DNA from: Duganella sp. OV510 | Lineage (GTDB): Bacteria; Pseudomonadota; Gammaproteobacteria; Burkholderiales; Burkholderiaceae_D | DNA: 64,000 bases | Direction: 5' to 3' | Assembly: GCF_900100205.1 (NCBI RefSeq) | Contig: NZ_FNEQ01000009.1 | Span: 1-64,000, forward strand | Shown: in pieces, positions 34,591 through 37,962 of the stretch | How positions within the stretch are numbered: the first letter of the stretch is position 1 | Layout: every line of letters begins with the position of its first letter | The notes under the pieces: model-generated | The model's database searches: none | Told to the model about the DNA's origin: nothing | What the model saw: the letters and a program-made list of their open reading frames with translations, nothing else | Translations under genes and position numbers: made by a program

Positions 34591-35490
34591 ATGGAATTAC
34601 GCCACCTGCGCTACTTCGTCGCCGTTGCCGAAGAATTAAGCTTCACCCGTGCCGCCGAACGGCTGCATATCGGCCAGCCGCCGTTAAGCCATCAGATCCA
34701 GATGCTGGAAGCTGAAGTAGGTGCGCAATTGCTGGAGCGCAGCAAGCGCTGGGTGCGCCTGACTGAAGCCGGCAAGCTGTTCCTCGATGACGCCCGCCGC
34801 GTGCTGGCCCTGTCTGAGCAGGCGATGCAGACCGCGCGCCGCGCCGAACGTGGCGAGGCCGGCGAACTGCGCGTCGGCTTCACCTTTTCCACGCCGCTGA
34901 CGCCGCTGTTTGCGGCGGTGATCAACCGTTACCGCCAGCGCTATCCGGGCGTACAGCTGACTTTGCGCGAGATGTCGACCATCGGCCAGATCGAGGCCAT
35001 CGCCAGCCGCGAGCTGGACCTGGGCCTGGTGCGGCCGCCAGAACTGAACCTGCCGGATGCGGTGGACCTGACGATATTGCGGCGCGATCCGCTGGTGATG
35101 GTGCTGCCGGTCGGCCATCGGCTGGCGAAGAAGAAAAGCATTGCTGTCAGCGACCTGCGGGGCGAGCCGCTGGTGATGTATCCGGAAAGCGCCGGCACCG
35201 GCATTCATCCGCAGATCAACCGGCTGTGCCGCGAGGCTGGTTTCAAGCCGACCATTGCGATGGAGGCCGGCGAGGCGTCCACCATCATTGGCCTGGTGGC
35301 GGCAGGCTGCGGCGTGTCGGTGCTGCCGAGTTCCTTCGACATCATCCGCATGCGCGAGGTGTGCTATCGCCCGATGGCGGATGCCGAGGCGACCACGGCG
35401 CTGTATCTGGCGAAGAGAAAAGATGCGATATCGCCGCTGGTCGCCGCCTTCGTCGCGGTGGCGACGCAGGCGGCTGCGGCAAAGGCTTAG
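34591..35490 (+). CDS. LysR-family transcriptional regulator
   Basis: A 299-residue LysR protein. The N-terminal helix-turn-helix (MELRHLRYFVAVAEELSFTR) is of the CatR/BenM/CbbR-like group, followed by a periplasmic-binding-like effector domain with GLVAAGCGVSVLPSS. It probably controls the divergent MFS gene 97 bp away. A/T-rich TTTAAAC repeats occur in the gap. The stop overlaps the convergent unknown gene by 4 bp. Confidence 0.92.
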   Translation: MELRHLRYFVAVAEELSFTRAAERLHIGQPPLSHQIQMLEAEVGAQLLERSKRWVRLTEAGKLFLDDARRVLALSEQAMQTARRAERGEAGELRVGFTFSTPLTPLFAAVINRYRQRYPGVQLTLREMSTIGQIEAIASRELDLGLVRPPELNLPDAVDLTILRRDPLVMVLPVGHRLAKKKSIAVSDLRGEPLVMYPESAGTGIHPQINRLCREAGFKPTIAMEAGEASTIIGLVAAGCGVSVLPSSFDIIRMREVCYRPMADAEATTALYLAKRKDAISPLVAAFVAVATQAAAAKA

Positions 35491-36374
35491 GAGTAGTCTG
35501 CGTCCAGCTCGGAGCCGGCGTAGTTTTCCAGTTCGGCAAACAGCGTTTTCATCGCCGTGCGTCCCTTGATGTTTTGCAGCACGGTGCAGGTCTGACGATA
35601 GCTGTCGATGCGTTCCAGCAGCACCGGATGATGCTGCACCGGCACCTTGGCCACCAGCTCGGCCCAGCCGGCCTCATAGTCCGGCTTGTTCTTGCGCACC
35701 GCTTTGACAAAGCGCTCGAACGCCTTCTGGCCGGTGCGCGCGACGATCATGCCGCCGCCCTCCACCGCGAAGATGATCGCCAGTGCGATCACGCCCTCGG
35801 CATTCAGGTCGGCATCGCTGACCGGGCCTTCGGTGTTGTGGCGGCGCAGCCAGTTGGCCAGCCGCACCACCGCCTGCACTTCCTTGCGCTGCCTGAACTG
35901 CACCGCGTAACGCGCGGCGCCGTCCCAGTTCTGGTTCGGATCGGTCTGGCAGATATCGATGAACTTGTCGCGCAAGCGCCGTGCGGCGTACACCGGATCG
36001 GTATCGTACTCGCCCACCAGCGCATCCTCCGGCAAGGTCACCAGCTCCTTGATCATGCGGAAGCCGATCTGGAACGCATGCTCGGCGCCCTGGTCGATCA
36101 GCAGGTCCAGCGCAGCCAGGTCGTCCTCGGCGCCCACCGCCTGCTCCAGCCCCAGCGACACGCAGCCGGTGGTCAGCTGCAAGGCCTTCTGGATACCATC
36201 GGCGGTGCGGTCGTTGGTGAACTTCTCGGCCACCATGGCGGTGATGCCGGTCAGCTCGTCGGCCAGCGTGTAGGCCGCGTCGTCATCCGGGTGCTTCGCC
36301 AGTTGCTGGATCGCACGGGTCAGGCGCGGCAGGGTTGCTACGACGATTGCAGGCAGCATCTGATCGCCATCCAT
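35487..36374 (-). CDS. Unrecognised protein, last gene of the J-domain operon (295 aa)
   Basis: A 295-residue soluble, mostly helical protein that I do not recognise. It has no signal peptide, membrane segment or obvious catalytic motif. Landmarks include YDTDPVYAARRLRDKFIDIC, TDPNQNWDGAARYAVQFRQR and a glycine stretch AVEGGGMIVARTG. The ATG overlaps the preceding stop codon as TGATG (a GTG at 36377 is an alternative start). With the three upstream genes it forms a tight unit headed by a J-domain protein, so a role as chaperone client, adaptor or complex partner is plausible. Function unknown. Confidence 0.75.
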   Translation of the reverse strand: MDGDQMLPAIVVATLPRLTRAIQQLAKHPDDDAAYTLADELTGITAMVAEKFTNDRTADGIQKALQLTTGCVSLGLEQAVGAEDDLAALDLLIDQGAEHAFQIGFRMIKELVTLPEDALVGEYDTDPVYAARRLRDKFIDICQTDPNQNWDGAARYAVQFRQRKEVQAVVRLANWLRRHNTEGPVSDADLNAEGVIALAIIFAVEGGGMIVARTGQKAFERFVKAVRKNKPDYEAGWAELVAKVPVQHHPVLLERIDSYRQTCTVLQNIKGRTAMKTLFAELENYAGSELDADYS

Positions 36375-37144
36375 CACGAGAAGATATTGGTGCCGACCGA
36401 GCGGCGCGAGGTTTTCGCGGCACGCGTGGACGGTACTTGCTTGCGCAGGCGGTACAGCAATTCCTTGGTCGAACGCTGCAAGATGCTGGGCTCGGCGTCC
36501 GGGTCATCGTCGTACTCGGCGTCGGCCAGGTCGGCGCTGTGGCGGAATTCCGGGAACAGCTCGAACAGCGCGCGGTCCCAGCCGTCTTCCGACGCTTGCG
36601 CCAGGGCGATCGCCACCGGCACGATATCGCTGTCGGACGAGGTCTGGCCGGTCAGGTACGGGCCTTTCGAAATCACTTCGCCGGCCACTTCCAGGATTTC
36701 CTTCGGCGCCAGCGAGAACAGGATGGCGAAGATGGTCGCGCCATGGTCGGTGGCCGAAGCGGCCGCCAGCAGTTCGTTGCGGCGTTCTTCGTCATCGGTG
36801 GCAAACACCACGCCATGGATGTGCGAGAACAGCGATTCGGCGATGCGCTCCGGATCATCCTCGATCTGGTCGTCCGGCCAGGTGGCGGCGATGAAGGCCA
36901 GGCTGTCAGCCCAGGCTTTCGGCGGCACCAGCAGCGTCGCCAGCGACATCTTGCCGCCGTCGAAGCCGGCCATGTGCAGCGCGGTCACTTGCGGCGGGAT
37001 GTTGTTCAGCACTTCCACCACCGCCAGGTCGCCGAACTGGTCGGCGGCTTCGGCGAAGGCTTCCTCAGCATGGCTCAGCGAGCCGGCCAGCACCAGCTCG
37101 GTCACCTGCTTGCTCAATGCGGGCAGATTGGATTTTTCGGACAT
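36374..37144 (-). CDS. Unrecognised acidic protein of the J-domain operon (256 aa)
   Basis: A 256-residue acidic soluble protein of unknown function, mainly helical, with acidic stretches (ATWPDDQIEDDPERIAESLF; DAEYDDDPDAEP) and a basic C-terminal tail (RAAKTSRRSVGTNIFS). No known motif seen. It starts 2 bp after the 166-residue gene and ends overlapping the next start. The tight packing argues for coordinated stoichiometric synthesis. Confidence 0.75.
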   Translation of the reverse strand: MSEKSNLPALSKQVTELVLAGSLSHAEEAFAEAADQFGDLAVVEVLNNIPPQVTALHMAGFDGGKMSLATLLVPPKAWADSLAFIAATWPDDQIEDDPERIAESLFSHIHGVVFATDDEERRNELLAAASATDHGATIFAILFSLAPKEILEVAGEVISKGPYLTGQTSSDSDIVPVAIALAQASEDGWDRALFELFPEFRHSADLADAEYDDDPDAEPSILQRSTKELLYRLRKQVPSTRAAKTSRRSVGTNIFS

Positions 37145-37146
37145 GC

Positions 37147-37647
37147 TTAATCTCCATCCTTGTCGAACATCTGGGCAAAGTCGTCGCTTGCCACATCTTC
37201 GTCGTCGACATCGTCGCCATCGTCGTTGCGCGACAGCTGGTCGAGCGACTGGTCGTCATCGTCCCAGCGGCGCGGATTCTTGTGCAGGAAGGCGGTGATG
37301 ATGGCCTGGCGCGCCAGGTCCGGCATCGATTCGGCGATCGCCGCATACATCTTGGCCGCCTCGTCGCCCTTGCACGAAGCCATGGCGAACACGCGCGCGG
37401 CGTCGCCGAACTCGTAGTCCTCGGCTTCGGCCAGCAGGCCTTTCGGGTCGTTGAACTCGATCTGGTCAACCAGCGCGAAAGCCAGCATGTTGACGTCTTC
37501 GATGCCGCCGCCCTGGGCGTACTCGCCCACCAGTGCGTCGACCATGCGCTGATAGTTCTTGTGATCCGGCGGATCGCCCAGGATGCCTTCGATCTGGCCT
37601 TCCAGCTCACGCGATTGATAGGCGAACTCAGGGTGTACTTTTCTCAT
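37147..37647 (-). CDS. Unrecognised protein with Asp-rich tail, J-domain operon (166 aa)
   Basis: A 166-residue soluble protein. The N-terminal two thirds look helical; the last 40 residues are extremely acidic (DDDDQSLDQLSRNDDGDDVD and onward), likely disordered. Such tails occur in chaperone clients, histone-like mimics and DNA mimics, but no family can be named. It starts 21 bp after the J-domain gene. Confidence 0.75.
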   Translation of the reverse strand: MRKVHPEFAYQSRELEGQIEGILGDPPDHKNYQRMVDALVGEYAQGGGIEDVNMLAFALVDQIEFNDPKGLLAEAEDYEFGDAARVFAMASCKGDEAAKMYAAIAESMPDLARQAIITAFLHKNPRRWDDDDQSLDQLSRNDDGDDVDDEDVASDDFAQMFDKDGD

Positions 37648-37668
37648 TTCTTACTTTCTAAACAGGTA

Positions 37669-37962
37669 TCAGGCGGCCGGCAGCGTGGTGCCGTGCAACG
37701 CAAACAGCGAACGCCACAGCTGGTAAGCCTCGGCCTCGGCGTCGATGATGATGCGGTGATTCAGGCTCTGGTTGTACTCTTCGCGCTTGGCCGGGTCCGA
37801 CAGGATCTCGTAAGCCTTGGTGACCGCCTTGAAGCGCGCATCCGCGCCGGGTTCGGGATTGCGGTCCGGGTGGAACCGCATGGCCAGCGAGCGATAGACC
37901 TTTTTGATCTCGTCTTCGCTGGCGTTCGGCGCAATACCCAGTGTGTTGTAATAATTTTCCAT
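37669..37962 (-). CDS. Short J-domain (DnaJ-like) protein
   Basis: A 97-residue protein consisting of a J domain ([23 protein letters not shown] at residues 31-33; [20 protein letters not shown]) and a 30-residue tail. It lacks the G/F, zinc-finger and substrate-binding parts of DnaJ, so it is a class C co-chaperone that should stimulate an Hsp70 on a specific partner. It heads a four-gene operon with three unknown proteins, its likely partners (inference). A TATAAT lies upstream at 38011-38006 on the minus strand. Confidence 0.9.

Follow-up and report, generated by a model that had tools for sequence, protein, structure and literature searches.

Four adjacent genes of Duganella sp. OV510 very probably constitute a divergent atcJABC operon, whose mechanism can be read by homology to that of Shewanella oneidensis, where atcJABC (SO_1850, SO_1849, SO_1848, and SO_1846) is a DnaK co-chaperone operon required for growth at 7 °C (Maillot et al. 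2019, PMC6715715). The genes occupy positions 35487..37962 of the window, by which we mean the whole 64,000-nucleotide stretch analysed (contig NZ_FNEQ01000009.1, positions 1 to 64,000). The J, B, and C proteins of the operon are homologous to those of atcJABC and co-occur among related genomes, and the docking extension of the J protein is conserved. The identification was made because gene order, protein sizes, a 21-bp gap between the first two genes, sub-cut-off matches to models of AtcJ and AtcC, profile links, the J protein extension, and co-occurrence all agree with it. An initial annotation, prepared from the sequence alone, had proposed an undescribed chaperone system; this claim of novelty fails because the proteins match a family that is already described and has an assigned role.

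Operon anatomy

The four genes form a tight operon on the minus strand, headed by a short J-domain protein. This AtcJ-like protein (97 residues; 37669..37962) consists of a J-domain at residues 3-64, with the HPD motif at residues 31-33, and a C-terminal extension, roughly 30 residues long, that includes Trp83. The second gene (37147..37647) encodes a protein of 166 residues with an Asp-rich, acidic C-terminal tail, for which the name AtcA-like is the weakest of the four assignments. The third (36374..37144) encodes an acidic, AtcB-like protein of 256 residues with the tail GTNIFS, recognised by a profile match through the in-family group described below, and the fourth (35487..36374) encodes an AtcC-like protein of 295 residues, recognised by profile matches and by a sub-cut-off match to NF047890. 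The J gene is separated by 21 bp from the 166-residue gene, which is followed after 2 bp by the 256-residue gene, and the last two genes share a one-base TGATG overlap. This anatomy, as given in the initial annotation, was borne out by the coordinates of the open reading frames, and the acidity noted there for the second and third proteins agrees with their computed isoelectric points of 4.1 and 4.5, respectively.

The four frames are considered genuine genes, and not chance open frames, because of their GC content at third codon positions (GC3), their conserved clustering, and their low dN/dS-like ratios (nonsynonymous to synonymous substitution). GC3 was 0.81-0.86 across all four genes, and the genes were adjacent in 30/30 same-genus loci, comprising 29 relatives and the window's own locus (L017), a set in which the J gene is represented by its 3′ part only. 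Median dN/dS-like ratios against the 29 relatives, calculated from ungapped alignments only, were 0.059 for the C-terminal part of J (29 alignments retained), 0.094 for B (15), 0.185 for A (28), and 0.194 for C (27). A promoter scan was uninformative: it revealed three terminator-like sites, each on the plus strand (shuffle mean 2.6), and no site resembling a promoter. As initially annotated, the operon encodes no Hsp70; none of the nine Hsp70 matches in the genome, of which three are near full length, is on the window's contig. The genome contains seven J-domain matches, and the operon J protein is the sole one on the window's contig.

Comparison with the atc operon of Shewanella

Shewanella AtcJ is a protein of 94 residues with HPD at residues 31-33 and a 21-residue extension, and it stimulates DnaK (PMC6715715). 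Its binding to AtcC requires the C-terminal extension, with a Kd of 7 nM for the protein and 80 nM for the peptide; AtcC in turn binds AtcB, and in a two-hybrid test AtcA bound none of AtcJ, AtcB, and AtcC (PMC6715715). At 7 °C, growth was severely reduced in mutants lacking J, B, or C, and not in a mutant lacking A; the operon was expressed at every temperature tested (PMC6715715). The gap between the J and A genes was 8-24 bp in 74/80 genomes of Shewanella, Moritella, and Aeromonas (PMC6715715), a range that includes the 21 bp of the window. Reference proteins for the present comparison were located with a DNA pattern derived from the published extension peptide, which gave one match, in Shewanella sp. 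PS-2. The proteins of this strain exceed all four NCBIfam cut-offs (J 185.7, A 287.7, B 510.2, and C 520.5 bits), and the models place its genes in the order J, A, B, C.

The window operon resembles atcJABC in the order J-A-B-C, in the similar sizes of its proteins (97 against 94 residues for J), in the position of the HPD motif, in a J protein with only a short extension, and in the acidic tail of AtcA, as well as in the homology of J and C and, through the in-family group, of B. It differs in the low identity to the fetched Shewanella proteins (18% for C and 16% for B), in that its four proteins fall below the NCBIfam cut-offs or are unmatched, in the presence of Ala where the Shewanella extension has Pro, and in an AtcA that is unrecognisable when considered alone. 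A parallel with HscB and IscU, drawn in the discussion of the Shewanella study, applies to the window in that a dedicated J protein is encoded in an operon with its partner; HscB, however, uses its own Hsp70, HscA (PMC6715715), whereas the window operon is without an Hsp70 and the J extension is short.

Curated family models

The J protein matched the Pfam DnaJ model with 89.2 bits (residues 3-64) and the NCBIfam model NF050028, which represents the J protein of cold adaptation, with 62.9 bits (residues 1-86), compared to a cut-off of 150. General DnaJ models outscored NF050028 on this protein, as expected for a J-domain. NF050028 is labelled ‘ActJ’ in the library and its description is printed twice, an apparent slip. 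The 295-residue protein scored 24.3 bits with NF047890 (AtcC; cut-off 370) and was the sole match of this model in its own genome, and the 166- and 256-residue proteins matched no Atc model or other relevant family in the curated model libraries. The window proteins were not filed under the four NCBIfam Atc equivalogs because these cut-offs are unmet while the fetched Shewanella proteins pass.

The AtcC-like protein also scored 23.8 bits with DUF6178, below the cut-off of 25.5, and this family was matched by 6/20 AtcC members, with E values up to 0.01; as a lead only, the protein is perhaps a distant relative of the DUF6178 family. Pfam returned nothing for the window AtcB and scattered weak rows for its relatives, each in at most 2/19 members. 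Searched by sequence against solved structures, the window B and C proteins had no match; such searches gave one row for the window A protein at E 0.85 and one for Shewanella AtcC at E 0.33.

Profile comparison of three groups

A search for the 256-residue protein within the window's own family revealed matches in 163/294 genomes and 16/44 genera. These matches fell into two sets, a close one with 70-100% identity and a distant one with 29-38% identity, the latter mostly spanning the first 80 residues among the matches listed. The distant set was taken as the in-family group, from which 15 loci were fetched (L078-L087 and L134-L138), and in each of the 15 three or more further genes follow a J gene. 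Searches with the four proteins of one such locus yielded 15 distinct strings each for J, A, and B, and 14 for C, after exclusion of matches with a stop, with coverage below 60%, or with an identical sequence. A gene-chain script, run on 32 sequences, did not pick up the J gene in L122 (at a contig end) and L130, and returned an incomplete chain for L131. With the NCBIfam models, one in-family A protein scored 26.3 bits (AtcA) and one C protein 20.9 bits (AtcC), both sub-cut-off, and the in-family B protein matched none of the Atc models.

Profiles were compared among the window clade, Shewanella, and the in-family group, with the top unrelated pair reaching 10.9%. The J profiles matched at more than 99% for every pair of groups. 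For C, the match was 95.7-96.6% between the window clade and Shewanella, 97.3% between the window clade and the in-family group, and 94.5-95.3% between the in-family group and Shewanella. The B profile of the window clade matched that of the in-family group at 96%, and the latter matched Shewanella at 22-49%. Against a merged profile of the in-family group and Shewanella, the window clade reached 98.4% for C and 96-97% for B. On the basis of these percentages, J and C are directly homologous to Shewanella AtcJ and AtcC, and B is homologous to AtcB through the bridging in-family group, an outcome that went against the novelty of the system. For A, the in-family group matched Shewanella at 94-96%, and the window clade matched the in-family group at 14-19% (colinear) and Shewanella at 0.3-0.6%; with the merged profile the match was 7% in one direction and 26% in the reverse direction, the latter spanning 20 columns. 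The 166-residue protein is likely AtcA from its place, size, and acidic tail, an assignment that falls short of proof.

The C-terminal extension of the J protein

The published Shewanella extension peptide reads NNVIVTDPNSAMRELWDQFYP, and the window extension aligns with it. The Trp of the extension was kept in 79/79 distinct strings, W83 of the window included, and a Pro eight residues before the Trp was present in 21/21 Shewanella-order, 15/15 in-family, and 11/43 window-clade strings; these counts refer to distinct strings, seeds included, and not to genomes. In a test with 2000 column shuffles, in which the Trp was held fixed (16, 14, and 11 distinct extension blocks), the extension block gave z 3.8 between the window clade and the Shewanella order and z 3.7 between the in-family group and the Shewanella order, and no shuffle reached either value. 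Judged from these alignments, the J extension is homologous to the AtcC-binding peptide and is conserved as a putative docking extension. The initial annotation had described a J protein with no substrate-binding domain, a description at odds with this extension, a binding element beyond the J-domain, the counterpart of which binds AtcC in Shewanella. In a 2023 study by Weber and colleagues, a P-x7-W extension was reportedly described on short J proteins of beta- and gamma-proteobacteria, encoded beside homologues of atcA, atcB, and atcC. The window J protein reads A-x7-W, and so falls outside the P-x7-W definition.

Co-occurrence and distribution

Co-occurrence was assessed in 40 genomes of the window's own family, chosen as 20 of the 163 AtcB-positive genomes and 20 listed of the 131 AtcB-negative ones. 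A J match entering the extension occurred in 20/20 AtcB-positive genomes (115-135 bits, ending at or past profile position 88 of 90), and in 0/20 AtcB-negative genomes among the matches listed, the best of which stop near position 65. AtcC was likewise found in 20/20 AtcB-positive genomes (232-424 bits), always on the same contig as the J gene. Because sequences from 9 of the 20 positives had gone into the J profile and from 11 into the C profile, the independent cases number 11 for J and 9 for C. The AtcB-negative genomes gave one weak match to the AtcC profile (24.5 bits), in G473, a genome that is 73% complete; this match sits in a frame that appears ferritin-like by eye, without a family search, and is judged to be due to chance. 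A J match in G473 that runs to profile position 83 belongs, judged by eye, to another J protein (174 residues), whose J-domain is likewise followed by a Trp, and the short contig that carries it shows no A, B, or C. The initial annotation had named co-occurrence with the J protein as a check on its proposal, and it was confirmed for the extended J protein and C in every AtcB-positive genome of the set.

Within the genus, AtcC was present in 59/60 genomes, the single miss being 60% complete. A single-sequence search for AtcC found it in 0/40 genomes from other families of the order. In the Shewanella order, NF047890 matched 39/295 drawn genomes, 35 of them above the cut-off. In a class-wide draw of 369 genomes, NF047890, the AtcC profile, and the AtcB profile each matched the window's own genome alone; this draw gives no measure of spread in the Shewanella order, because NF047890, which does find members of that order, matched none of them in the draw, and few or no members of that group were thus drawn. 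A tblastn search of 72,556 plasmid and 50,697 phage records gave no AtcB match. From these searches, the operon looks retained within lineages and patchy between them.

Variable features of AtcA, AtcB, and AtcC

Asp and Glu make up 42-45% of the last 40 residues of the AtcA-like protein in the 30 same-genus loci, and 51% and 44% of the last 45 residues in the Shewanella and in-family seeds, respectively. The C-terminal tail of AtcB (36377-36400 in the window) is GTNIFS-like in 30/30 same-genus loci (29 with IFS and one with IFA), ESAL or DSAL in 9/9 in-family rows, and DMF(S/T)FL followed by Asp or Glu in 4/4 Shewanella-order rows. These tails are conserved inside each group, differ between groups, and are preceded by a poorly conserved stretch; the AtcB tail is possibly a docking peptide.

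Relative to the AtcC proteins of the window and Shewanella, those of the in-family group carry about 100 additional residues on the C-terminal side (400-443 residues in total by the gene-chain script). In four in-family loci (L078, L079, L080, and L087), the gene upstream of the J gene resembles, by eye, an FKBP prolyl isomerase of the chaperone-like SlyD type. In the window, the 3′ end of the AtcC-like gene overlaps by four bases (35487-35490) a convergent gene for a LysR-like regulator (34591-35490, named by eye).

Weighing of alternative explanations

Several results weigh against the identification of the operon as atcJABC. No window protein attains an NCBIfam cut-off (NF050028, NF047888, NF047889, or NF047890), and A and B are without any Atc match. 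The direct profile match of B between the window clade and Shewanella is just 0.5-0.7%, and the values that link A, 7-26%, overlap those of unrelated pairs (up to 10.9%). The extension block gave only z 2.3 between the window clade and the in-family group, a value reached by 34/2000 shuffles, and the Pro of the extension is absent from 32/43 window-clade strings, replaced by Ala in 28, the window among them, and by Ser in four. The binding and cold-phenotype data come from Shewanella alone. That the four genes form an undescribed chaperone system unrelated to atcJABC, with a trivial J-domain similarity and a coincidental gene order, would account for the lack of known-family matches for A and B. 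This explanation is nevertheless very improbable and was rejected on the homology to atcJABC: a 96% profile match ties C to Shewanella AtcC, the in-family group provides the link for B, unrelated pairs remain at or below 10.9%, and the J extension aligns beyond the J-domain. A phage-defence or mobile system, with which the patchy distribution outside the window's own family would be compatible, is the least credible reading of all; none of the four proteins gave a PADLOC match, and this null result, together with the failure to find AtcB in the plasmid and phage records, led to its rejection, to which the near-constant presence of AtcC within the genus also adds.

A less drastic possibility, unlikely yet more probable than these two, is that the operon is homologous to atcJABC and has been repurposed in this clade, such that the chain from DnaK through J and C to B serves another client or stress and AtcA is a working part. 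Consistent with this possibility, AtcA is under purifying selection and yet barely recognisable in comparison with the other groups, the Pro of the extension has been lost in most clade strings, the AtcB tails are clade-specific, and the in-family C protein is longer. The retention and co-occurrence of the J, B, and C core speak against it, and expression cannot discriminate, since the Shewanella operon is expressed at all tested temperatures. A related and somewhat more doubtful suggestion is that the atc network has been rewired in the clade, as the lost Pro, the selected but diverged AtcA, and the clade-specific AtcB tail might indicate, so that its task may differ from growth in the cold. 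Under such rewiring, the AtcB tail (GTNIFS-like as opposed to EESAL-like or DDMFSFLD-like) would be a swappable docking peptide that chooses the recipient of DnaK, be it RNA polymerase or another partner.

Proposed mechanism and significance

If the window genes are a divergent atcJABC operon, the same interactions and the same role in the cold would be expected in this organism by analogy with Shewanella. The J-domain of the 97-residue protein would stimulate the housekeeping DnaK, near full-length Hsp70 matches being present elsewhere in the genome, and the J extension, with its invariant Trp, would dock on the AtcC-like protein, which would in turn hold the AtcB-like protein. DnaK would thereby be delivered to the AtcB-AtcC complex or to the cargo of AtcB, possibly RNA polymerase, and this delivery would support growth in the cold. 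In the published system, too, the complex may act as a client, a client adaptor, or a localiser (PMC6715715). The initial annotation had already proposed that the J protein brings the housekeeping DnaK to its partners, which agrees with the published Shewanella system; its three-partner complex is not supported, as AtcA lies outside the complex demonstrated there. A meeting report places AtcB in contact with RNA polymerase, and for this reason the likeliest task may be to bring DnaK to the transcription machinery when it is cold, a proposal for which the balance of judgement is roughly level. A later workshop report, in which a paper about conservation among environmental proteobacteria is cited, states that the atc mechanism awaits elucidation.

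As a discovery the finding is minor, since the system was described in 2019. Through it, three anonymous proteins that are near-universal in the searched genomes of the genus become parts of a testable chaperone network, and the distant homologues reveal what is constant in that network, namely the extension Trp of the J protein, AtcB over its N-terminal half, and AtcC in its core. The interest that remains is clade-specific and lies in the lost Pro, in an AtcA that is under selection though unrecognisable, and in AtcB tails that vary from clade to clade.

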